Virus record (IMG/VR): IMGVR_UViG_3300044591_002420 | Location: 61,004 to 125,003 of that record | DNA: 64,000 nucleotides | Source: a virus | Reading direction: 5' to 3' (one strand) | Shown here: one piece after another, positions 41,385 through 62,500 of the stretch | Numbering within the stretch: position 1 is the first letter of the stretch | How the letters are laid out: each line of letters begins with the position of its first letter | Notes under the pieces: model-generated | Databases searched by the model: none | What the model saw: the letters and a program-made list of their open reading frames with translations, nothing else | Told to the model about the DNA's origin: nothing | Translations under genes and position numbers: made by a program

Positions 41385-41834
41385 ATGCGACTTGAAACCG
41401 TCAATCGTCATCTGGGAGAGATTGAGTGTATTATTCAATCGGTTTATAGTGCCGCGAAGTGTCATCTCCTCTCATCAGAACAGATCAACGCTGAAATTTA
41501 TCGGAGAGTTCTTGATACAAATAAGTATAAAAATCTTCCCATGTGGGCAAAAGATAAGGTGTATGATATTATCAAACATTTCAGGAAAAAAACAATAGAT
41601 ATGTATGTTCGGTTGTTTTATATTGGTCTGGATGATAGAAAGATTCCCACTCACAAAGCATGGGATCTTTTCACCGAAGAAGAGAAAGAATTGTGCCGAA
41701 CACCTAATGGCTTAGTAATCCATCATATTTGGATGAGAGAAACAATCCAAAGAAACGATGATGGAAGTGAGATTATCACTCTCAATCCTACTGATAAAGT
41801 ATATTGGTGTTCTAAGATTAAAGAAACAGAATAA
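41385..41834 (+). CDS. Hypothetical protein
   Basis: 149 aa from ATG 41385 (GCAATTCTTCTCATG leader). Helical N-terminal half (RLETVNRHLGEIECIIQSVY), basic middle (KDKVYDIIKHFRKKTIDMYV), C-terminus with LVIHHIWMRETIQ. No family recognised. Confidence 0.6.
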   Translation: MRLETVNRHLGEIECIIQSVYSAAKCHLLSSEQINAEIYRRVLDTNKYKNLPMWAKDKVYDIIKHFRKKTIDMYVRLFYIGLDDRKIPTHKAWDLFTEEEKELCRTPNGLVIHHIWMRETIQRNDDGSEIITLNPTDKVYWCSKIKETE

Positions 41835-41841
41835 TAACATC

Positions 41842-41864
41842 AGCCAGGTTTAATCCCTGGCTAT
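41842..41864 (+). terminator. Hairpin terminator
   Basis: AGCCAGG-tttaatc-CCTGGCT, 7-bp stem; the T-run is weak. Confidence 0.6.
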
Positions 41865-41910
41865 AAACTTATATTTTCTCTTAAAAATAGAATAGGTTTC
41901 CCGTATCTGT

Positions 41911-42004
41911 ATTCTACTCATGATCCAACATCCTGTCAAGCATTCTTCCATAAGCATTCCTGATCGGTTAAGGGCTTGACGTGGGCATCAATCCGGTCCA
42001 TACT
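41911..42004. promoter_or_regulatory. Class B divergent promoter module 3
   Basis: Leftward TTGACA (top 41934-41939), 17 nt, TAGAAT (top 41911-41916); rightward TTGACG 41976-41981, 17 nt, CATACT 41999-42004. Core CATAAGCATTCCTGATCGGTT. Confidence 0.75.
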
Positions 42005-42029
42005 ATGGAAGTCAACCGGAACCGAACCG

Positions 42030-42194
42030 ATGGCCCAAACATTCCGCCCTGTCTGCGACATTCAGAGCAGAAATCCGTTCATGGTAGCGGTAGTCAAAGA
42101 TGATAAGAATCTTCTCATCGACAGTGAGCCTTCAGTGGTTCCGATGTCGTGGATTGCCGCTGAGTACGCTAAACAATATGGAAAAGTGAAATGA
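42030..42194 (+). CDS. Small hypothetical protein
   Basis: 54 aa from ATG 42030; longer in-frame starts precede the -10. AQTFRPVCDIQSRNPFMVAV then SWIAAEYAKQYG. ATGA overlap with the next gene. Confidence 0.55.
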   Translation: MAQTFRPVCDIQSRNPFMVAVVKDDKNLLIDSEPSVVPMSWIAAEYAKQYGKVK

Positions 42195-42775
42195 GCAATA
42201 ATAAATTCCGAATCGTTAAGTATAACGGTTCCTTTGAAGAATGTGAAGTTCTTCAAGTCTGTCACTCGTATGAGGAAGCAGACCAAAGATTCCAATACTG
42301 GGATGATAAATATACGAACGATTATATTGAGAACGATTATATTGAGATTCTCACTCCAGAAGACTGGAGAAATTTTCAATTAGGTTCTAATCCCTTAGGT
42401 TCTAATCCATCATTGATGTTCCAAACAAGTTACACGATCACCGGCCGTCTTCAACGCCAATTAGCGGCAGTTGCTACTCCAATTGTCGAGGATTGGTTCA
42501 CAGATGTATTGATTCACGATACTGCCGCTGTCAAAGATATGGAAATTGGCGAAGTTCGTTTATGGGCACTTCGCAAAACGGGTACATGGTTGTGTACTCT
42601 GAAGCAAGATATTTCTGAGTATAACGAATTTTCTGGACTTATCACCAAAATTATGAAAAGACCCGATGAATATAATGACGGATATTATCATCTTTTTCTA
42701 TTGCATAAGATCTCAGCAGATAAGCTGAAGATCACACCGACAACTTATGAAGAAATGTCCTATGTGAATGTGTGA
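42191..42775 (+). CDS. Hypothetical protein with short internal duplications
   Basis: 194 aa. Two fresh in-frame tandem repeats: NDYIENDYIE and LGSNPLGSNP (12-15 bp units). N-terminal FRIVKYNGSFEECEVLQVCH resembles a small modification-type beta domain. The rest is alpha/beta. No family recognised. Confidence 0.6.
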   Translation: MSNNKFRIVKYNGSFEECEVLQVCHSYEEADQRFQYWDDKYTNDYIENDYIEILTPEDWRNFQLGSNPLGSNPSLMFQTSYTITGRLQRQLAAVATPIVEDWFTDVLIHDTAAVKDMEIGEVRLWALRKTGTWLCTLKQDISEYNEFSGLITKIMKRPDEYNDGYYHLFLLHKISADKLKITPTTYEEMSYVNV

Positions 42776-42786
42776 GATAATAAATG

Positions 42787-42810
42787 CCCCGGAGAAATCT
42801 GGGGTTTTTT
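42787..42810 (+). terminator. Intrinsic terminator
   Basis: CCCCGGA-gaaa-TCTGGGG plus TTTTTT. Confidence 0.85.
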
Positions 42811-42858
42811 ATTGTTTATATTTTGATAAGAAAAATAGAATAGGATCTCCGTATCTGT

Positions 42859-42953
42859 ATTCTAGTCATATTTTTATCGGTTGTCAAGGTCTGAACTGAT
42901 AAAATGTTCTTATCGGTTAAAGGGTTGACAGATTCCTAAAAGCGGTTTATTGT
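42859..42953. promoter_or_regulatory. Class B divergent promoter module 4
   Basis: Leftward TTGACA (top 42882-42887), 17 nt, TAGAAT (top 42859-42864); rightward TTGACA 42925-42930, 17 nt, TATTGT 42948-42953. Core GATAA-AATGTTC-TTATC-GGTT. Confidence 0.8.
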
Positions 42954-42983
42954 ATGAGAGTCAATCCATCAAGGCTCTCTCTC

Positions 42984-43220
42984 ATGTATAGTTCTCTCCG
43001 CGAAAAATGCAGGAATTATACTGGCAATGTTTCTCTCAGAAGGGAACGTCTTAATAATGGCGGATACACTAAAGATGGTGTATATTTTGGTGTCGGTGAT
43101 CGTCTATATTATATGGCAGATGAAGATGGAATTTATGATCATTATTTTCGTGCAACATGCCGAGAAGAAGCTATTGAAATCGGAAAGGTAACGTATCCTA
43201 ATGGCAAGTTTCGCAAATAA
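42984..43220 (+). CDS. Hypothetical protein
   Basis: 78 aa from ATG 42984 (CTCTCTCATG). Basic N-terminus (SSLREKCRNYTGNVSLRRER), then a Tyr-rich strand (DGVYFGVGDRLYYMADEDG). No family recognised. Confidence 0.6.
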   Translation: MYSSLREKCRNYTGNVSLRRERLNNGGYTKDGVYFGVGDRLYYMADEDGIYDHYFRATCREEAIEIGKVTYPNGKFRK

Positions 43221-43259
43221 TACTTTGTTACCGTAATTCATCCAATCGCATTTAATTCA

Positions 43260-43523
43260 ATGTCAATTCGCTACACAATTCAACGATTCGCTGATTCTGG
43301 AAACTGGGCTGATCCAGAAGGAAACGAAGTGCGTCATTATTCCAATAAGAAAGAAGTCAATGATGATCTAGATTATTGGGCTGATGTAGTTGAACGTCAT
43401 GATGATCGGCGGGATGCTTATCTTATGGTTTGGTGTGGAGAATTGGAAGATGTAACCGATCAGTATCCAGATTTTAAGGTAACAATCGGCCCCCGTGGGG
43501 GTATCAATTGGGAATCATGTTGA
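43260..43523 (+). CDS. Hypothetical protein
   Basis: 87 aa, acidic (SIRYTIQRFADSGNWADPEG, NDDLDYWADVVERHDDRRD). Looks like a small alpha/beta domain. No family recognised. Confidence 0.6.
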   Translation: MSIRYTIQRFADSGNWADPEGNEVRHYSNKKEVNDDLDYWADVVERHDDRRDAYLMVWCGELEDVTDQYPDFKVTIGPRGGINWESC

Positions 43524-43549
43524 ATTGAATAACAAATACAAACACATTT

Positions 43550-43575
43550 GCTAGGGTATAACAATACCTGACCTT
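43550..43575 (+). terminator. Weak hairpin (eroded terminator)
   Basis: Related to the hairpins at 38391 and 44642 (GGGTAT-aaca-ATACC) but with a shorter stem. Confidence 0.4.
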
Positions 43576-43628
43576 ATCTTATAGCCTTATATTTTGTTGA
43601 AAAAATGAGATAGTCTGTCCGTATCTCT

Positions 43629-43723
43629 ATTCTACTGGTAATAATCCAGGTTGTCAAGGTCTGGAGTGATAAGCATTTCTGATCGGTTGAAGGCTTGACG
43701 TTTGCCGCTGGTGGGTCCATACT
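43629..43723. promoter_or_regulatory. Class B divergent promoter module 5
   Basis: Leftward TTGACA (top 43652-43657), 17 nt, TAGAAT (top 43629-43634); rightward TTGACG 43695-43700, 17 nt, CATACT 43718-43723. Core GATAAGCATTTCTGATCGGTT. Confidence 0.8.
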
Positions 43724-43753
43724 ATAGAAGTCAACCAAACCGGAAGGTTTCCG

Positions 43754-43963
43754 ATGGACGCCACTAACCATCCCGAACCGCTTGATAATGTTTATGTGGA
43801 AGAAGAATTTGGTCATTATGAAATGACATTGCGGAGATTTTCGAGAGAGGATCTTATTCTTTTCTGCACTATTCTCGAAAATGCTGAACATAGGGGAGAA
43901 TCTAATGAATTCATCAATGGAACAAGACTTGAAATTGAATCTTTTATTATGGAGGTGAATTGA
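43754..43963 (+). CDS. Hypothetical protein
   Basis: 69 aa, acidic helical (EEEFGHYEMTLRRFSREDLI, ENAEHRGESNEFINGTRLEI). Starts 30 nt after the class B -10. No family recognised. Confidence 0.6.
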   Translation: MDATNHPEPLDNVYVEEEFGHYEMTLRRFSREDLILFCTILENAEHRGESNEFINGTRLEIESFIMEVN

Positions 43964-44000
43964 TCTGTTTTCTTATTCTTATTCCATCGCAATTCTCATC

Positions 44001-44234
44001 ATGGCAATGTACATCAACAACGAAGAATTTTCCCAAACCACGTACTATGTTGGTGAATACCTATCTTTAGGTGATGTGAAGATCAATCAAGTCCAGGCAG
44101 ATGGGGACGAATTGTTGCTTTGTATGAGAATTTTAAGAATTGAAAAGATAGACAATAGAGTACACATATTTGTGGGTGATGAAGCCCGCGAAATTATTTC
44201 CAATTGGAATAACTATCAAAAGCTATATTCTTAA
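44001..44234 (+). CDS. Hypothetical protein
   Basis: 77 aa, acidic; strands NEEFSQTTYYVGEYLSLGDV and RVHIFVGDEAREI. The GDEARE motif also appears in the next protein (SGDEAREF). No family recognised. Confidence 0.6.
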   Translation: MAMYINNEEFSQTTYYVGEYLSLGDVKINQVQADGDELLLCMRILRIEKIDNRVHIFVGDEAREIISNWNNYQKLYS

Positions 44235-44262
44235 CAATAACCATTCCATCGCAATTCTTCTC

Positions 44263-44427
44263 ATGAACGCTTACAGCCTTTCCGCATCACAAGCTAGAGA
44301 AAAGATCATTGAATGGGGAGAAGAAATCTCTTTTGAGACTGTCTGTCGTGAAATTGTGTCACGAATGAGCGGCGATGAAGCCCGCGAATTTGTGGAGTAT
44401 TTTCATGATAATGTCCTGAACAACTGA
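44263..44427 (+). CDS. Small hypothetical protein
   Basis: 54 aa from ATG 44263 (TTCTTCTCATG). Helical, NAYSLSASQAREKIIEWGEE, with GDEAREFVEYFHD at the end. Preceded by the repeated leader. Confidence 0.55.
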   Translation: MNAYSLSASQAREKIIEWGEEISFETVCREIVSRMSGDEAREFVEYFHDNVLNN

Positions 44428-44458
44428 TCTAATTTCTTATTCCTTTGCAATTCTCATC

Positions 44459-44620
44459 ATGACTTACATTCTCACAGGTGTTGATCGTTCGGGCAAGCGA
44501 TTCAGGAAAGAATCAACAAATTGTTATTATCTTTCCTGTCATAATGTATGGCGAGGAAACTTATGGGAGCAAGATCCCGTTACAGGAAAAAGAAAGAAAA
44601 TCAAATCTTGGTACAATTGA
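44459..44620 (+). CDS. Small hypothetical protein
   Basis: 53 aa, basic (TYILTGVDRSGKRFRKEST, VWRGNLWEQDPVTGKRKKIK). Beta-rich, could bind nucleic acid. Preceded by the repeated leader; followed by a terminator. Confidence 0.55.
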   Translation: MTYILTGVDRSGKRFRKESTNCYYLSCHNVWRGNLWEQDPVTGKRKKIKSWYN

Positions 44621-44641
44621 GTAACAAATACAAACACATTT

Positions 44642-44675
44642 GCTAGGGTATAACAATACTCTAGCATTTGTTATA
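44642..44675 (+). terminator. Terminator hairpin
   Basis: GCTAGGGTAT-aaca-ATACTCTAGC then ATTTGTTATAG. Confidence 0.75.
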
Positions 44676-44720
44676 GTCTTATATTTTGTTGAAAAAATAG
44701 AGTAGGCTTCCCGTATCTGT

Positions 44721-44815
44721 ATTCTACTGACAATAATCCAGTTTGTCAAGATCTGGAGTGATAAAATGTTCTTATCGGTTAAAGGCTTGACGGTGGCCGC
44801 TGGTGGCTGTATATT
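44721..44815. promoter_or_regulatory. Class B divergent promoter module 6
   Basis: Leftward TTGACA (top 44744-44749), 17 nt, TAGAAT (top 44721-44726); rightward TTGACG 44787-44792, 17 nt, TATATT 44810-44815. Core GATAA-AATGTTC-TTATC-GGTT. Confidence 0.85.
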
Positions 44816-50515: not shown

Positions 50516-50918
50516 AGAATGGATTCAAAGAGTCTCTCAGTCTCGTTCAGAGCTGGGAGGCTTTTCTGTATGTCCTTATGCATCTAAAGCATCTTATAAG
50601 ATCGTTGAATGTGACATTGATAAACTAGAACCAATAACAGGTTATGATATTCTAATTTACATCGTCAATGAGTCTTCACTGGAAGAAATCAATAAATGGA
50701 TAGAACATTATAACGAAGAGTATTCTGATTGGATCTTTCTAGAAGACTGTGCTACCTATGACACCTTTATTAATGGTGTTCAGACCAATAACGGAAGTCT
50801 CAATTTAATACTCGCTCAGCCCAAGAAAGATTTACTAAAAGCCCGAGAAGCATTAAAAAAGACCAGTTACTATTCGTTCTGGTCCGATGAGTATTATAAT
50901 GAAATCGTTGGAGATTAA
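50442..50918 (+). CDS. Conserved cyanophage-type hypothetical protein
   Basis: 158 aa from ATG 50442, or 147 aa from ATG 50475 (MQNANPLAVKAVEEWIQRVS). NPLAVKAVEEWIQRVSQSRS, then GGFSVCPYASKASYKIVECD, resembles a conserved cyanophage protein (AVK-x-V-x-x-W-I-x-R-V-S ... CPYA). Function unknown. The earlier frame overlaps the small basic gene fully, so 50475 may be right. Converges with the minus-strand virion block. Confidence 0.7.
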   Translation: MANTPKTLQPVEMQNANPLAVKAVEEWIQRVSQSRSELGGFSVCPYASKASYKIVECDIDKLEPITGYDILIYIVNESSLEEINKWIEHYNEEYSDWIFLEDCATYDTFINGVQTNNGSLNLILAQPKKDLLKAREALKKTSYYSFWSDEYYNEIVGD

Positions 50919-51526
50919 CGAAGTCTTACATTAGCAAGATTGGTTGTTCTTTTTCTTTTCTCTTCTTGTGATGCCTGAGGCTTTTCGTTTCTAATCTTTT
51001 CTTGAGTATCGGCAAGATTTCTTAATGCAACTGCATAACGCTCTCTTTGTTTTGGAGTAACTTGCTTCATCTGCCAATCAAGAAGAATAGAATGTTTCCA
51101 ATCTTCGCTCATTACACTCATAATATTTCTGGCAGCATCTTCACTATCAACAAAACCCCCATCAATCAGATATTCAAGAACGAGATCATAAACATCCATT
51201 TCTTCCTTGAAACCACTGTCCCTCATGTCTCGTTCTGCATCAGCTTTTGCCATTCTAGGGCCGGGGCCTCTTTGAATGTTTCTTGCCGATCTGGCGATTG
51301 CCTTCTTTGATCCTTGTGCATTAGCAGCATGAATCTTGTCACCGCGTTTAACGTCTTCGGGGTTATCACTATTGATGAGTTTATTCACTTTGGCTCTTAT
51401 TCTATTGCCACGTTCATATGGTGCCCGATAATTCTTGTCTGCTTTTGCGAGCGCAGAACGTCGTTCTTCATTTTCTTCATAAACACCCAAATAAGCCTCG
51501 TGAAGACTATAATACTTACCGTTCAT
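50915..51526 (-). CDS. Putative virion-associated protein with shared C-terminal helix motif
   Basis: 203 aa, basic. N-terminus YYSLHEAYLGVYEENEERR; central region rich in K, R, A (RGNRIRAKVNKLI, SKKAIARSARNIQRG). At ~112-150 it has VYDLVLEYLIDGGFVDSEDA then ARNIMSVMSEDWKHSIL, a module also present in 53520-53882 (YLVDNNFAKTEKAARNIM ... MSENWIQSIL). A late-type CTAAATA box lies 23-29 nt upstream (51549-51555). Likely a virion or capsid protein, role unknown. Confidence 0.7.
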   Translation of the reverse strand: MNGKYYSLHEAYLGVYEENEERRSALAKADKNYRAPYERGNRIRAKVNKLINSDNPEDVKRGDKIHAANAQGSKKAIARSARNIQRGPGPRMAKADAERDMRDSGFKEEMDVYDLVLEYLIDGGFVDSEDAARNIMSVMSEDWKHSILLDWQMKQVTPKQRERYAVALRNLADTQEKIRNEKPQASQEEKRKRTTNLANVRLR

Positions 51527-51548
51527 TGTTGTTAGTTTGAATATAAGT

Positions 51549-51555
51549 TATTTAG
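51549..51555 (-). promoter_or_regulatory. Late-promoter-like CTAAATA box
   Basis: CTAAATA on the minus strand (top TATTTAG), 23 nt before the ATG of 51526. T4-like late promoters have TATAAATA-type -10 boxes recognised by gp55; CTAAATA is a cyanophage-like version. No -35. Confidence 0.55.
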
Positions 51556-51564
51556 AATTTATTG

Positions 51565-52203
51565 CTAAAATGGTAGTAATGCACCTAGAGTAGTCTTAAC
51601 AAGAAAATCTTTAGCTTTTCTCACAGGTTTTGATCTAGCTATTCTTCTACCAGAATTTCTTGATTGTTTTGTTAGAACTCTATTTGCCTTTCTTGTGACG
51701 GATTTTATTTTGCGATCTCTTTCTCTTACTCTTTTTAGTTTATCTCGTAATGCTTTCTTTGTGTTTTTATCAGTGGTGTTTTTAATTTGTTTCTGGATTC
51801 TTTGTACTTGACCAAAAAGCTCCATGATCAATTCTTCGCTCAATTTTGGATTTCTAATTCTACTATCTGATACACTAAAATCTTTATTTCTTCCACTATT
51901 TTTGTTAAATCCAAAAGACTTATAGAATTTTTCTAGCTTTCCTTTCTTTCCCTTATCGGCTTGTGGTGTGAGTGTAACTCTTTTGTTTTGTTTATCGGCA
52001 TAACGAGTCAGACCCTTAATTGCTCTTGAGCCGATTCCTTGATTTCTTTTTTCTTTTGGTACTTCTATAGCATGAAGCCTAACATCACCACTATTACTAA
52101 GAGTAGAATGAAACTTCATTCCTGGATATTTTCTTCGCCAGGCGGAGCCTATTTTATCTAAGGATTCTTGTGATTCGGTAATAAACTGGCGAAAGGTTTT
52201 CAT
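51565..52203 (-). CDS. Putative packaged GNAT acetyltransferase
   Basis: 212 aa. Residues 1-11 MKTFRQFITES match the T4 capsid-targeting sequence (MKTYQEFIAEA of the internal proteins), with a likely gp21-type cleavage after FITE. Residues ~40-110 read as a GNAT: VRLHAIEVPKEKRNQGIGSR (acetyl-CoA Q/RxxGxG loop), then KRVTLTPQAD and KFYKSFGF. The C-terminal 80 residues are strongly basic. Predicted to be packaged in the head and injected; target unknown. Confidence 0.75.
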   Translation of the reverse strand: MKTFRQFITESQESLDKIGSAWRRKYPGMKFHSTLSNSGDVRLHAIEVPKEKRNQGIGSRAIKGLTRYADKQNKRVTLTPQADKGKKGKLEKFYKSFGFNKNSGRNKDFSVSDSRIRNPKLSEELIMELFGQVQRIQKQIKNTTDKNTKKALRDKLKRVRERDRKIKSVTRKANRVLTKQSRNSGRRIARSKPVRKAKDFLVKTTLGALLPF

Positions 52204-52748
52204 CTTCTTTTTGGTTGAGTTTTCGTTCTTTGTGGTTTATCTTTTGCTCTTATTGTTGGTGGTGCATTTTTGCTGATGTTCTTGTTAGCGGTATCTATGT
52301 CAACCATAATATAACTCCCCTTACCAGCTTTTGCACCCGCATTATGAGCATCTGGTACCCGAACTATTTTATGACCTTTCTTAATGTATTCTCTAGATTG
52401 TTGTATAGGACTCACTTTCTTTGCTCTTTTCATGAGTTCTTCACCTTCATATTTTTGTAACAACTCCTTTTTCTTTTCTCTTGATTTTTTATGTGATATT
52501 GTATTTTTTACTTTAGGATTAACAAATTTAAGATTCACTCTAGAATAACCATAATCATTACCCACTCTAGGTGTAGGAGTTGTATATACAGTTTTATTAG
52601 TTTTTTCTGGATGATAAGTTCCTGATGACGGAGATTCTTTGAAGCCTGATTTTAAAATAGAGTTTTTATTTTCTCTAGAAGTGTAATGAGCGGTTCTCAA
52701 AACTCTCATTCTTTTGGCTTCGGTTATAAACTGGCGAAAGGTCTTCAT
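52200..52748 (-). CDS. Putative packaged ADP-ribosyltransferase-like protein
   Basis: 182 aa. Begins with MKTFRQFITEA (capsid-targeting-like, cleavage predicted after FITE). Then RTAHYTSRENKNSILKSGF is an ART-like loop-helix ([YH]-x-[TG]-S-x-EN-x-x-x-IL-x-x-G[FI]); TVYTTPTPRVG and a SYIMVDIDTAN strand may be further core elements. The C-terminus is basic and Pro/Lys-rich. T4 packages an ART (Alt), so the analogy is attractive, but the catalytic Glu cannot be fixed by eye. Overlaps the next gene by ATGA-type coupling. Confidence 0.6.
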   Translation of the reverse strand: MKTFRQFITEAKRMRVLRTAHYTSRENKNSILKSGFKESPSSGTYHPEKTNKTVYTTPTPRVGNDYGYSRVNLKFVNPKVKNTISHKKSREKKKELLQKYEGEELMKRAKKVSPIQQSREYIKKGHKIVRVPDAHNAGAKAGKGSYIMVDIDTANKNISKNAPPTIRAKDKPQRTKTQPKRR

Positions 52749-53158
52749 CTTCCAAATTTTCTAATATTACTTTTTGTATTACCAACTTCAATATATTTTT
52801 TTGTTTTTCGGTTTTCTATATCACGTTTCATCTCTCTTGATTCGGGATGACTTAAATCACCACGAACCATTCTAGAAAACATTCTTCCCTGCCTATAACC
52901 TTTTAGTTTATCAATTCTAGTCCTAACCTCTTTTTTAGTGTTGGGTAAATTACCACTGTCTGTTCTATAATCATCCCGGGATTTTTTATCATATTTGGCG
53001 CCTCTGTTTGCAGAATGAAACATGCGCCTGATTCCAGTTTGTCGATCTCTTAATAAAGTTGATCCTGTTGCTCTTTTGTTTCTTATGTCCTCTTTTTCTA
53101 AAGGACTAAGATTTTTTTCTTGTTTGGCCTCGGCCATAAACTCTCTATAAGTCTTCAT
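52745..53158 (-). CDS. Putative packaged basic protein
   Basis: 137 aa. Begins MKTYREFMAEA, the closest match here to T4 MKTYQEFIAEA. The rest is highly basic (K/R ~27 percent) with no fold recognised: RMFHSANRGAKYDKKSRDDY and RKTKKYIEVGNTKSNIRKF. Basic character suits association with packaged DNA. Confidence 0.7.
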   Translation of the reverse strand: MKTYREFMAEAKQEKNLSPLEKEDIRNKRATGSTLLRDRQTGIRRMFHSANRGAKYDKKSRDDYRTDSGNLPNTKKEVRTRIDKLKGYRQGRMFSRMVRGDLSHPESREMKRDIENRKTKKYIEVGNTKSNIRKFGR

Positions 53159-53161
53159 AGT

Positions 53162-53536
53162 TCAATAACCGTGTTTTGGAATTTGATGTGAATATTGACG
53201 TAGTATAACAGCAGCAGTAGCATTAGCCTCATTTTCAATATCGCTGCCATCACCACCATCCATCTCTTTACCACTCGCTTTTTGTTTATAATGAACCAAC
53301 TCATGAGCCAGTGTGCGATAAATGTCCATAGGATGACGTTCTGCAATCTGAATTCTTATCGTATCGTCAGAAAGATTATACATCCCAAAGGTCTTATGTT
53401 TCGCTGAAAATTCAGGATTATCAATAATAATAACATTAGGAGTTTCTTCTATTTCAAGATGATCACAAGCAAACTTAAGAAAGTCTTTGACTTGCGATCT
53501 TTTTGATTCAGTAAGAAATTCAGTGTACTTCTTCAT
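53162..53536 (-). CDS. Putative packaged zinc metallopeptidase
   Basis: 124 aa. MKKYTEFLTES at the N-terminus is capsid-targeting-like. TLAHELVHYKQ contains HExxH zinc-binding residues (~82-86); SDIENEANATAAVIL supplies a downstream glutamate as third ligand, the gluzincin order. VIIIDNPEFSAKHKTFGMY lies before it. Similar small peptidases occur in cyanophages. May act as a co-injected or maturation protease. Start overlaps the 53520 gene. Confidence 0.75.
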   Translation of the reverse strand: MKKYTEFLTESKRSQVKDFLKFACDHLEIEETPNVIIIDNPEFSAKHKTFGMYNLSDDTIRIQIAERHPMDIYRTLAHELVHYKQKASGKEMDGGDGSDIENEANATAAVILRQYSHQIPKHGY

Positions 53537-53882
53537 CTAGAATACTTTGAATCCAGTTTTCACTCATCGCTTCCATAATATTTCTTGCAGCTTTTTCGGT
53601 TTTTGCAAAATTATTGTCCACCAAATAAGCAATAATGGTATCAACTTCTTCTTTCACTAATTTTCTGACAGTTTCGCGTCTTTTATTGTGAAGATGTTCT
53701 ACATCCTTTCTTGTGAATTTTGGATCTGCAGCTTTTTTGGCACCCTTCTCAATATTTTTCTTCACTGCTTCAATATCAACAGCTTCACTAATACGATAGC
53801 GAATTCTTTCTGCATAAGGAAAGACTTCTCTCGTGACAGTACAACCATACATGTCATAATAAGAATCCAGTAATTCGTCCAT
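53520..53882 (-). CDS. Putative virion-associated protein with shared C-terminal module
   Basis: 120 aa. N-terminus DELLDSYYDMYGCTVTREVF; basic middle (KKNIEKGAKKAADPKFTRKD); C-terminus YLVDNNFAKTEKAARNIMEA then MSENWIQSIL matches the 50915 protein. First gene of the minus-strand late operon, 24 nt after a CTAAATA box. Overlaps the peptidase start by 17 nt. Confidence 0.65.
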   Translation of the reverse strand: MDELLDSYYDMYGCTVTREVFPYAERIRYRISEAVDIEAVKKNIEKGAKKAADPKFTRKDVEHLHNKRRETVRKLVKEEVDTIIAYLVDNNFAKTEKAARNIMEAMSENWIQSILDEEVH

Positions 53883-53905: not shown

Positions 53906-53912
53906 TATTTAG
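53906..53912 (-). promoter_or_regulatory. Late-promoter-like CTAAATA box (leftward)
   Basis: Minus-strand CTAAATA (top TATTTAG), upstream of the gene starting at 53882. Divergent partner of the box at 53924. Confidence 0.55.
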
Positions 53913-59500: not shown

Positions 59501-62500
59501 CTTTTGATTCCACAACTTTTAATTCAGAAATTATTCCGATTTTCAGAGGTGGAATTGTAGATGTAACATTAGAGTCAGGAGGTGATTCTTATGGTTCTCA
59601 AGATATTTTAGATTACTCAATTGAACCAAAAATCACAATAACAAAAGGTAGTGGAGCGCAGCTAAAACCTATAATTAATAAAGGAAAAATTATAGGAGTT
59701 ATTATTCAATATGCTGGATCTAATTATATTTCAAATCCCGACATAATCGTTCAAGGGGATGGATATAACGCAGTTCTTGCACCAATTATTCAAAATGGTC
59801 TTATTGTTGATGTAGAAGTTATTTCTGGTGGATTTGGTTATACACCAGAAAAAACATTCATTACAATAAATTCTCCAGGTGAAGGTGCTCAGTTCAAAAC
59901 CGCGATTAGATCATGGAGGATCAATAATTTTGAAAAACTTTATATCTCAAATTATTTTAGTGAAGATGATGGAGTTATTGCTAATGCACTCAATCCCAAT
60001 AATGGATTACAATATTATCATCTTTTTGCACCAAGAAAGCTAAGATCGTCAACATATTCAAAGAATATCTTAAATGGTGTTACTGTTTTCCAAAAAGATC
60101 TTCAGGTAGACCAAAACAACAAAGAAATAGATTCCACCGCACACTCACCTATTTTAGGTTGGGCATATGATGGCAATCCGATTTATGGTCCTTATGGTTA
60201 CACAACAAGCTTTAATTCAACGAATATAAAACAGTTAAAAAGTGGTTACACATTAAAAACAAATTTACAACTTGGAAGTGAAAATAGACCAGATCAAAGC
60301 ATCTACGCTGCGGGAATGTTTGTTGAGGATTATGAATACACCGCTGCTGGGGATCTAGATGAACATAACGGTCGTTATTGTGTAACTCCAGAGTTCCCCA
60401 ATGGCGTTTATGCATATTTTACCACCTTTGAAGATGTTGCGTCAACTTCTGGTGCATTTGTGAACTACAAAAAGCCGAAGTTTCCTTATGTTATAGGTAA
60501 TTCTTTCTATTCTAAGGCAATTGATTTTAACTTTGATCCAAAATCAAACCAATCCCAAGTCAATTTTAGTGATTTAGGATTACTAAGAAATACTTTACCA
60601 TATAATTTGAAATCTAACAACACTAATTATGAAGGACTATTGTTACCTTATGAAGTAAAAAAAGCTATTTTTACTATAAAAACAGTAAATCCGTCAAATA
60701 TTAATAAAATTGACGTACTTTATGGTGGAGATGGATATAAGGTCAACGATACTATTGAACTGGAGAGCAATAATTTAGCAAAAATCTCAAAAATTAGAGG
60801 AAAATCAGTAACCGGAGTTGCCTGTTCTGAGAATTTCGTAGAAAATCTAGAACTCCTGTCTAAAAATAGTGAATTAATAGCTTATTCTGCCACGCCCCAT
60901 CCATTTAAAGATGGCGATTCCCTATTTTTTAGTTCTTATGGTGGTAAAAATACAAAACAAAAGGTAAAAATTAGAGAAAATCAGCTTATTTTATCAGTTG
61001 GAGTACAATCAAGTAGTATTACCGGAATTGTTACTCATTTTAATGTCTATGGAAATCTTTCAGAAGACGATATAAAACCAAATGATGTCTATAAAGTCGG
61101 AAATGAAGAAATAAAAATTCTAACGGTTGATAATATTGGGTCAAGAGTCTGGATAGAAAGACAATATAATGGAACATCGGGGATAAACTCTTTTCCTGTG
61201 GGATTTGCTTTCACTGAAAAATCAAGAAAGTTGATTTTTTCCAATAATATTGGAATTAGTAGCAATATAATCAACAACCAGTATTATTTTAAGCCTTCTG
61301 AATCTGTGGGCTTAGGTACTACCACTACTAATAGAGTTTTTATTGGTTCCCCTGGTGTTGGAGCAACTTTTATTGATATTCCAGCAAGATCAATTTATCT
61401 TGAAAATCATAATTTACAAACTAATACAAAACTATCTTATAGTGCTCATGGAAATCAACCAATTTCAGTTTTAATTAATGGTGTAACTGGAGCGCTTCTT
61501 AACACATTTTCAAGTCTTTATGTTGCAAGATATAATGATAATTTAATTGGTCTTTCAACAACTCCCATCGGAATTGGATCTACTGGATCTTTTATTGGTA
61601 TTGGTACAACCACATCTCTTTTGAGTTTTACAAATTTTGGTGACGGTTCGTACCATAGTTTTAACACACAATATACATCATTAAAAGGTGATGTGATTAA
61701 ACAGGATATTATTGTATCAGCCGCCTCAAGTCACAATTTAAGTCTTGAAGATAATATTAATCTTTCTGTAATTTCTGGAATAACAACTCATATTAGACTA
61801 AAATATTCCGATTATAATAGAAGAATTACATCAAAAGAAGTATCAATTCAAAATGTTGACATTGACAATAATATACTAAAATTCAACGAACATTCTTTTA
61901 AAACCGGTGAAAGGGTAATCTATACTACAACATCAAGTATTTCAGGACTCAATAACAACGGAATTTATTATGTCATATCTATAAACAAATTTAAGTTAAA
62001 ACTTGCAACCTCAAAATATAATGCAGAAAATCTTATTGGAGTAGATTTACAATCTGGTGGTTCGGGTTCACTTTCGTCTATCAATCCACCTTTGAGACTT
62101 GAAAGAAATTCCACTATCGTTTTTGATCTCTCTGATTCTTCTCTTGGTTATGTGAAAAATGGTTTTTCATATTCGGCATTTTCTTTTGATGTATATTATG
62201 ATCCGGAATTAAATTTCTCCTATTTTAATAATGGAAAATCTCCCCAATTAAATCTAACTTTTTCTGGTAGTATTGGAGTTAATACTGATGCAAGAGCAAC
62301 TCTTAAAATAGATGTATTTACTCCTTCATTTCTTTATTATGATCTAAAGCCCCTCAATAGGGAAGTGCCTACAGTCAAATATGAAAAAGTTATTGATATT
62401 AATCAAATCAATTATAACACTCTTCGGATTGAAGAATCATCACTCAGCGGGAATTATAAAATTAAGTCCTTCGGAGAAGATACTTTTGTTCTAGAGCCTA

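Follow-up and report, generated by a model that had tools for sequence, protein, structure and literature searches.

A T4-type head-targeting leader on enzymatic cargo is real and conserved in cyanophages, and no earlier remark on it was found in the literature searched. The case described here is a minus-strand cassette of four genes (51565-53536) in a 64,000-nucleotide stretch of viral DNA, referred to as the window, which covers positions 61,004 to 125,003 of IMG/VR record IMGVR_UViG_3300044591_002420. Very probably, this cassette is an operon that a T4-like cyanophage expresses late and that encodes internal head proteins. Packaging of the four proteins into the head is well supported by the analyses below, and we infer that they are injected and have targets in the host. 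A preceding sequence-only reading of the window had quoted the N-termini of the four open reading frames (ORFs), and the ORF check returned exactly these. The genes are as follows, a slash marking the predicted cut.

51565-52203, minus strand: GNAT acetyltransferase-family protein, 212 amino acids, leader MKTFRQFITE/S, basic C-terminal tail; assigned from GNAT families and homologues
52174-52203, minus strand: leader of the GNAT protein, residues 1-10; from the DNA comparison with the leader of the next gene
52200-52748, minus strand: probable ADP-ribosyltransferase (ART)-like protein, 182 amino acids, leader MKTFRQFITE/A, basic; from motifs and a distant homologue
52745-53158, minus strand: very basic protein, 137 amino acids, leader MKTYREFMAE/A, no known domain; from the ORF and profile searches
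53162-53536, minus strand: zincin-type metallopeptidase, 124 amino acids, leader MKKYTEFLTE/S; from conserved HELVH and ENEAN and PHROG_87

Adjoining leader genes either share 4 nt (ATGA) or abut, which makes a single transcription unit probable. The sequence-only reading had described an operon of four genes; the four leader genes are there, but the operon is larger and comprises six genes at 50915-53882. When the operon DNA was searched for similarity to annotated phages, no match was obtained.

T4 genetics assigned residues 4 and 7 of the leader to targeting and residues 8 and 10 to processing, and T4 gp21 cleaves after L/I-x-E (PMC9026906). All four leaders have F/Y at residue 4, F at residue 7, and E at residue 10. 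When compared with the full capsid-targeting pattern (aromatic at 4, F at 7, L/I-x-E at 8-10), three leaders fit completely and the fourth has M at residue 8. The leader is common to non-homologous proteins and is kept in relatives of the operon proteins at 36-85% identity.

The window is part of a 125-kb virus fragment (G000) without head genes. A near-identical sister contig of 179.5 kb (G001) overlaps this fragment and carries the head genes, including the following.

G001 41393-42043: gp21-type S77 prohead protease
G001 42092-43321: gp22 scaffold
G001 43370-44776: gp23

The gp23 protein was 71.5% identical to gp23 of Synechococcus phage B23, and the virus is therefore classed by sequence as a T4-like cyanophage. 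By comparison with T4, its gp23 propeptide ends at RGSLLTE/SPTNS; the sites in relatives are GLLTE/APTQA (S-CREM2) and SFLAE/APTNA (S-SCSM1). The leader ends FITE/S, FITE/A, FMAE/A, and FLTE/S follow the same rule as the gp23 site, with one M replacing L/I. Thus, the sister contig holds the gp21-type protease together with gp22 and gp23 carrying a cognate site, and gp21 cleavage of the leaders after E10 is probable.

The leader scan proposed in the sequence-only reading was run over the record and the sister contig, and only two further leader proteins were found, at G001 71427 and 95266. From shuffled N-termini of all ORFs of the sister genome, 0.075 matches to M..[FYWL]..F[ILMVF].E were expected, and 5 were observed, in addition to the GNAT ORF, which lies beyond the end of that contig. 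Even a single ORF with such a leader is unlikely to arise by chance.

The relation between leader and virion presence was determined from published cyanophage proteomes. The pattern, applied at residue 1, generalizes the six leaders found in this phage into relaxed residue classes; it was written after a first look at the S-CREM2 N-termini and then used unchanged on S-SCSM1 and S-SM1. The S-CREM2 virion contains the products of 52 of 219 coding sequences (CDS) (PMC10665884, Table 3). Exactly five CDS matched the pattern, each with a product in the virion (P=6.5e-4; 0.004 with CDS of at least 75 amino acids only, and 3.6e-4 with non-structural CDS of that size).

S-CREM2 gp6: SAM (S-adenosylmethionine) hydrolase, MKDFDSFLEE
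S-CREM2 gp13: MKDLHSFLTE
S-CREM2 gp14: kinase, MKRFDAFLTE
S-CREM2 gp136: MQTFSMFFSE
S-CREM2 gp154: cytidylyltransferase, MKNFSSFLTE

In S-SCSM1, one of two leader proteins, an NMNAT starting with MKSFLQFLKE, is labelled a virion protein. The only matching CDS of S-SM1 is a cytidyltransferase (MKKFSAFLNE, T4-GC190; 1/1), which was detected experimentally in the particle (PMC3037559). With the three cyanophages pooled, 7/8 leader-bearing proteins are in the virion, with P(>=7/8)=1.1e-4. Two phages were left out of the count: S-CBWM1, with a gene order that is not T4-like and an NMNAT without leader (1-50 kb of the record), and S-CREM1, for which 50 kb of the record was examined and the list of virion proteins is confined to a figure or supplement. 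Together with the gp23 site, the gp21 gene, and the late promoter of the phage itself, these counts support the earlier proposal of T4-like head targeting and gp21-type cleavage. No cyanophage paper discussing a capsid-targeting sequence was found in the literature search, and the available text of the S-CREM2, S-SM1, and S-SCSM1 papers does not name the leader as a packaging tag.

Two S-CREM2 proteins deserve separate mention. The virion protein gp6 (L067:3837-5081) carries the leader and is an S-adenosylmethionine lyase (PF23780, E=2e-19); as a packaged enzyme it is probably anti-restriction. In gp12 (L067:7704-10313), annotated Cas9/Csn1 and present in the virion, the motif is displaced to residues 17-25 (LRFASFMAE/A); no Pfam match backs the Cas9 label, and gp12 would be a packaged nuclease if it were of the Cas9/IscB type.

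The upstream sequences of the operon carry a candidate late promoter in two places.

53906-53912, minus strand: late promoter CTAAATA, 30 nt 5' of the first operon gene
51549-51555, minus strand: second late promoter CTAAATA, about 30 nt 5' of the 203-amino-acid gene

CTAAATA was described as the late promoter of Aeh1 (PMC1524935). Among the 29 CTAAATA copies in the contexts scanned in G001, 18 stand 22-44 nt 5' of an ORF, compared with 10% of random positions; ahead of late genes, gp21 and gp22 among them, the spacing is typically 30 nt. A CTAAATA also accompanies the leader protein at G001 95266, and a third noted copy in the window lies 26 nt before gp25. The motif is observed, and by its position the operon would be expressed late. 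The T4-like ATAAATA was rejected as the late promoter, as it is depleted and absent at the operon, and CTAAATA was taken as the motif. Both motifs are strongly depleted in the 64-kb window (ATAAATA, 6 against 29 expected; CTAAATA, 4 against 15 expected), which is consistent with selection against stray late promoters.

With respect to the cargo, the GNAT-like enzyme of the sequence-only reading was confirmed by matches to Pfam GNAT families (E=3e-4, just under the curated cut-offs) and a PHROG acetyltransferase (1e-5). A leader-bearing homologue (L091) scores above the Pfam gathering threshold, and the acetyl-CoA loop RNQGIGSR, of the form R/Q-x-x-G-x-G/A, is intact. M1, F7, and E10 are kept in 9/9 aligned T4-type GNAT homologues. 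Moreover, the protein matched PHROG_10691, a giant-protein profile of 3,925 positions, with E=3e-24, and the match begins exactly at residue 11. It is homologous to DarB-like giants of Parlo (40%, a stretch just before LPD39) and Vibrio phage 1.185.O (42%, a stretch after LPD22). The earlier reading knew of no acetyltransferase with such a leader, which does not hold: S-CRM01 SCRM01_185, annotated as an acetyltransferase (MKTFDEFLTEG), and B23 gp252 (MKTYSQFITEA) are leader-bearing homologues. No paper remarking on the leader of either acetyltransferase was found in the literature search.

The HExxH metallopeptidase had likewise been recognized correctly. The 124-amino-acid protein has the HExxH and downstream Glu of a zincin, and the zinc ligands of HELVH...ENEAN are invariant in 15 relatives. 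It matched the PHROG_87 metallo-protease (1e-6), and its matches to Pfam M78 and MPTase-PolyVal were weak. B23 gp332 is 53% identical and has the leader MNYKQFLRE/S, and many marine relatives start with shorter variants such as MRAREFLSEG.

The ART-like assignment is suggestive: conserved motifs (H21-x-T23, GF, and VYTTP) and the neighbourhood fit, but the ART identity of the 182-amino-acid protein, although probable, is unproven. The protein had no Pfam match and no profile match to known ART families. A distant leader-bearing homologue matched ART-PolyVal with E=0.024, and L143, another protein with the leader, is clearly an ART-PolyVal (E=1e-23). The first of two AlphaFold models had a predicted local distance difference test score of 52, which was too poor, and the second was usable at 73; a Foldseek search with the latter placed the PARP1 catalytic domain at rank 3 (E=1.3, not significant). 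PDB profile searches with the ART-like and peptidase families gave nothing credible, the matches being to designed proteins or chance.

The 137-amino-acid protein, for which profile searches found no known domain, was very basic as described earlier. After leader removal, the isoelectric points were 10.8 for this protein, 11.2 for the GNAT, and 10.5 for the ART-like protein, whereas the median of plus-strand ORFs was 5.4. Thus, three of the four have the strongly basic character that is usual in packed DNA-associated proteins. In contrast, the peptidase is acidic.

The cassette recurs and is shuffled among related viral contigs. The order peptidase-basic-ART-GNAT is found in L002 and L004; instead of the basic protein, L003 has a 244-amino-acid leader protein, which lies on the opposite side of the ART-like gene. 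Tagged pairs of ART and GNAT are also present in L091 and L201, and in L200 a tagged GNAT lies downstream of an ART-like region. In that region (L200:3224-4558), a part resembling the basic protein by eye is fused to an ART-like part with an internal leader, STKTFEEFINE/A, which suggests a polyprotein with parts that gp21 could separate at FEEFINE/A. In the window, the GNAT and ART-like leaders are identical at 29/33 nt of DNA, and the next 27 nt at only 10/27, as expected if exchange took place at the leader DNA. When viral contigs were scanned with the pattern, 80 non-redundant leader proteins were obtained, and 66 were profiled. Families of internal head or virion proteins are represented among these, as are cytidyltransferases, an AAA/zeta-toxin-type kinase, and GNAT, ART-PolyVal, and M78-type matches; being selected by the leader pattern, this survey shows cargo content, not conservation of residues 7 and 10.

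The operon lies directly 5' of gp25-gp6, in inverted orientation, and B23 has a tagged GNAT (gp252) and a small tagged protein (gp253) in the same place and orientation. Since the closest annotated relatives of the operon come from phages like B23 and the reservoir isolate S-CRM01, a freshwater host is likely on sequence grounds. The two remaining operon genes flank the cassette.

53520-53882, minus strand: first operon gene, 120 amino acids, N-terminus ELLDSYYDMY, C-terminal AARNIMEAMSENW motif, resembles SSCSM1_89
50915-51526, minus strand: 203 amino acids, N-terminus SLHEAYLGVY, same C-terminal motif, own late promoter

The 120-amino-acid ORF overlaps the first leader gene, and the 203-amino-acid ORF stands after the GNAT gene. 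Both proteins share an N-terminal L-x-[ED]-[AS]-Y-x-x-[VM]-Y and a C-terminal AARNIMxxMSExW. SSCSM1_89, which has the same kind of N-terminal start as the 120-amino-acid protein, is labelled a virion protein. Thus, the 120-amino-acid protein is a probable virion protein of a second type, and the start may be another virion tag. The slightly wider start L-x-[ED]-[AS]-Y-x-x-[VIML]-Y recurs in the window (50915-51526 and 53520-53882) and at G001 57246, 70407, and 81387, mostly with a C-terminal AAxxIMxxMSxxW and often behind late promoters. Elsewhere in the genome, about a dozen small paralogues of tandem PNTPPKxLEQLATDExxxVRxxVA repeats, of the leucine-rich variant/HEAT-like kind, are spread (L039-L041 = G000:C1:1-58000; G001 58346).

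The following course of events is proposed. The operon would be transcribed late from the CTAAATA promoters, and the ten-residue leader (aromatic at 4, F at 7, I/L/M at 8, E at 10) would bind the proteins to the prohead core, as for the T4 capsid-targeting sequence; the correlation with published virion proteomes favors this step. Then gp21 would cut after E10, as at the LLTE of gp23, and mature cargo would remain in the head. The cargo would enter the next cell with the DNA and act before phage gene expression. There, the GNAT and ART-like proteins may modify host or defence proteins, the peptidase may cleave proteins, and the basic protein may bind DNA or counter nucleases. Counter-defence or host take-over would be the likeliest purpose of the cargo, because the cargo families match the early-phase effectors of polyvalent proteins (PMC5512222) and T4 internal proteins have an anti-restriction role (PMC12373910).

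Several observations weigh against this proposal. The acidic peptidase differs from typical internal proteins, the FMAE site contains M at a position with an L/I preference in T4, and some peptidase homologues (S-SRM01 and L022) are without a leader. The S-SCSM1 leader protein SSCSM1_30 (106 amino acids, MKTFKQFMSE) is not labelled a virion protein. Furthermore, the authors of the S-CREM2 proteome warn that such enzymes could be CsCl carry-over, and those of the S-SCSM1 proteome were likewise unable to exclude it. On this account, the cassette would encode ordinary late intracellular enzymes, and the virion detections in other phages would be the contamination raised in those proteomes. However, contamination would not pick exactly the 5/219 CDS that carry the leader, the replication enzymes DNA polymerase and clamp are not on the S-CREM2 particle list, and S-SM1, analyzed by another laboratory, again has a tagged cytidyltransferase. 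This explanation was thus considered very improbable.

Equally little credence is given to the shared N-terminus being a relic of translation starts or gene duplication that hitchhikes with the genes instead of a packaging signal. The near-identity of the GNAT and ART leader DNA does indicate that at least these two are of recent common origin, but in the other leaders the DNA is different and the amino acids mapped by T4 genetics are preserved, and the leader is retained over deep divergence and across non-homologous proteins and predicts virion presence in other phages. A further alternative accepts packaging and cleavage and places the action inside the head, in scaffolding, DNA condensation, or maturation, with no injection. 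Three very basic proteins and the head-assembly role of T4 IPIII (PMC9026906) would agree with it; however, the GNAT and zincin active-site motifs are conserved, the cargo families match polyvalent early-phase effectors, the leader-bearing SAM lyase and kinase of S-CREM2 make most sense in the host, and the cargo content is variable and shuffled. Action inside the head was therefore judged unlikely, and injected internal head proteins remain the preferred reading.

As in T4 IPI, IPII, and IPIII, a ten-residue N-terminal leader of the same pattern precedes non-homologous cargo, and small basic proteins, a gp21 system, and a clustered variable locus are shared. Unlike those gp21-processed, injected proteins, which are inhibitors (anti-GmrSD), the cargo here is a GNAT, a zincin, and possibly an ART, in a cyanobacterial host lineage and with no sequence similarity outside the leader. 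T4 Alt, a packaged and injected ADP-ribosyltransferase, is similarly a protein-modifying enzyme cut by gp21, a fate here predicted from the genes; the ART-like protein, however, is much smaller and has no profile match to known ART families. Polyvalent proteins (P1 DarB/DdrB and the DarB-like giants of Parlo and Skulduggery) share the GNAT family, the zincin and ART domain types, predicted delivery with the DNA, and ART-GNAT neighbours, but here each domain has its own gene (124-212 amino acids) and leader instead of lying in a giant polypeptide, and profile searches of the window cargo found no LPD, helicase, or methylase domains. Since the domains of polyvalent proteins are early-phase effectors (PMC5512222) and the cargo families overlap them, the window proteins would be single-domain, individually addressed versions of the same effectors. 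The cyanophage virion enzymes (SAM hydrolase and kinase of S-CREM2, cytidylyltransferase/NMNAT of S-SM1 and S-SCSM1) are also non-structural with the same leader, although they belong to other enzyme families.

On balance, we lean slightly towards the view that the ten-residue leader of T4-like cyanophages serves as a portable address by which unrelated enzymes become injected effectors. Cyanophage proteome papers repeatedly report metabolic and regulatory enzymes in particles and question contamination, and the leader offers a simple, testable reason for their presence. T4 internal proteins, by now recognized as specific anti-restriction factors, and polyvalent proteins, joined here, were not connected in the literature found; if the view is true, they would be two packaging formats of one shared effector pool. 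A phage would then gain a new injected effector by placing a protein behind ten residues. As the leader allows the cargo of any T4-like genome to be recognized from sequence, it would provide a rule by which the injected proteome of an abundant virus group could be read from genomes.
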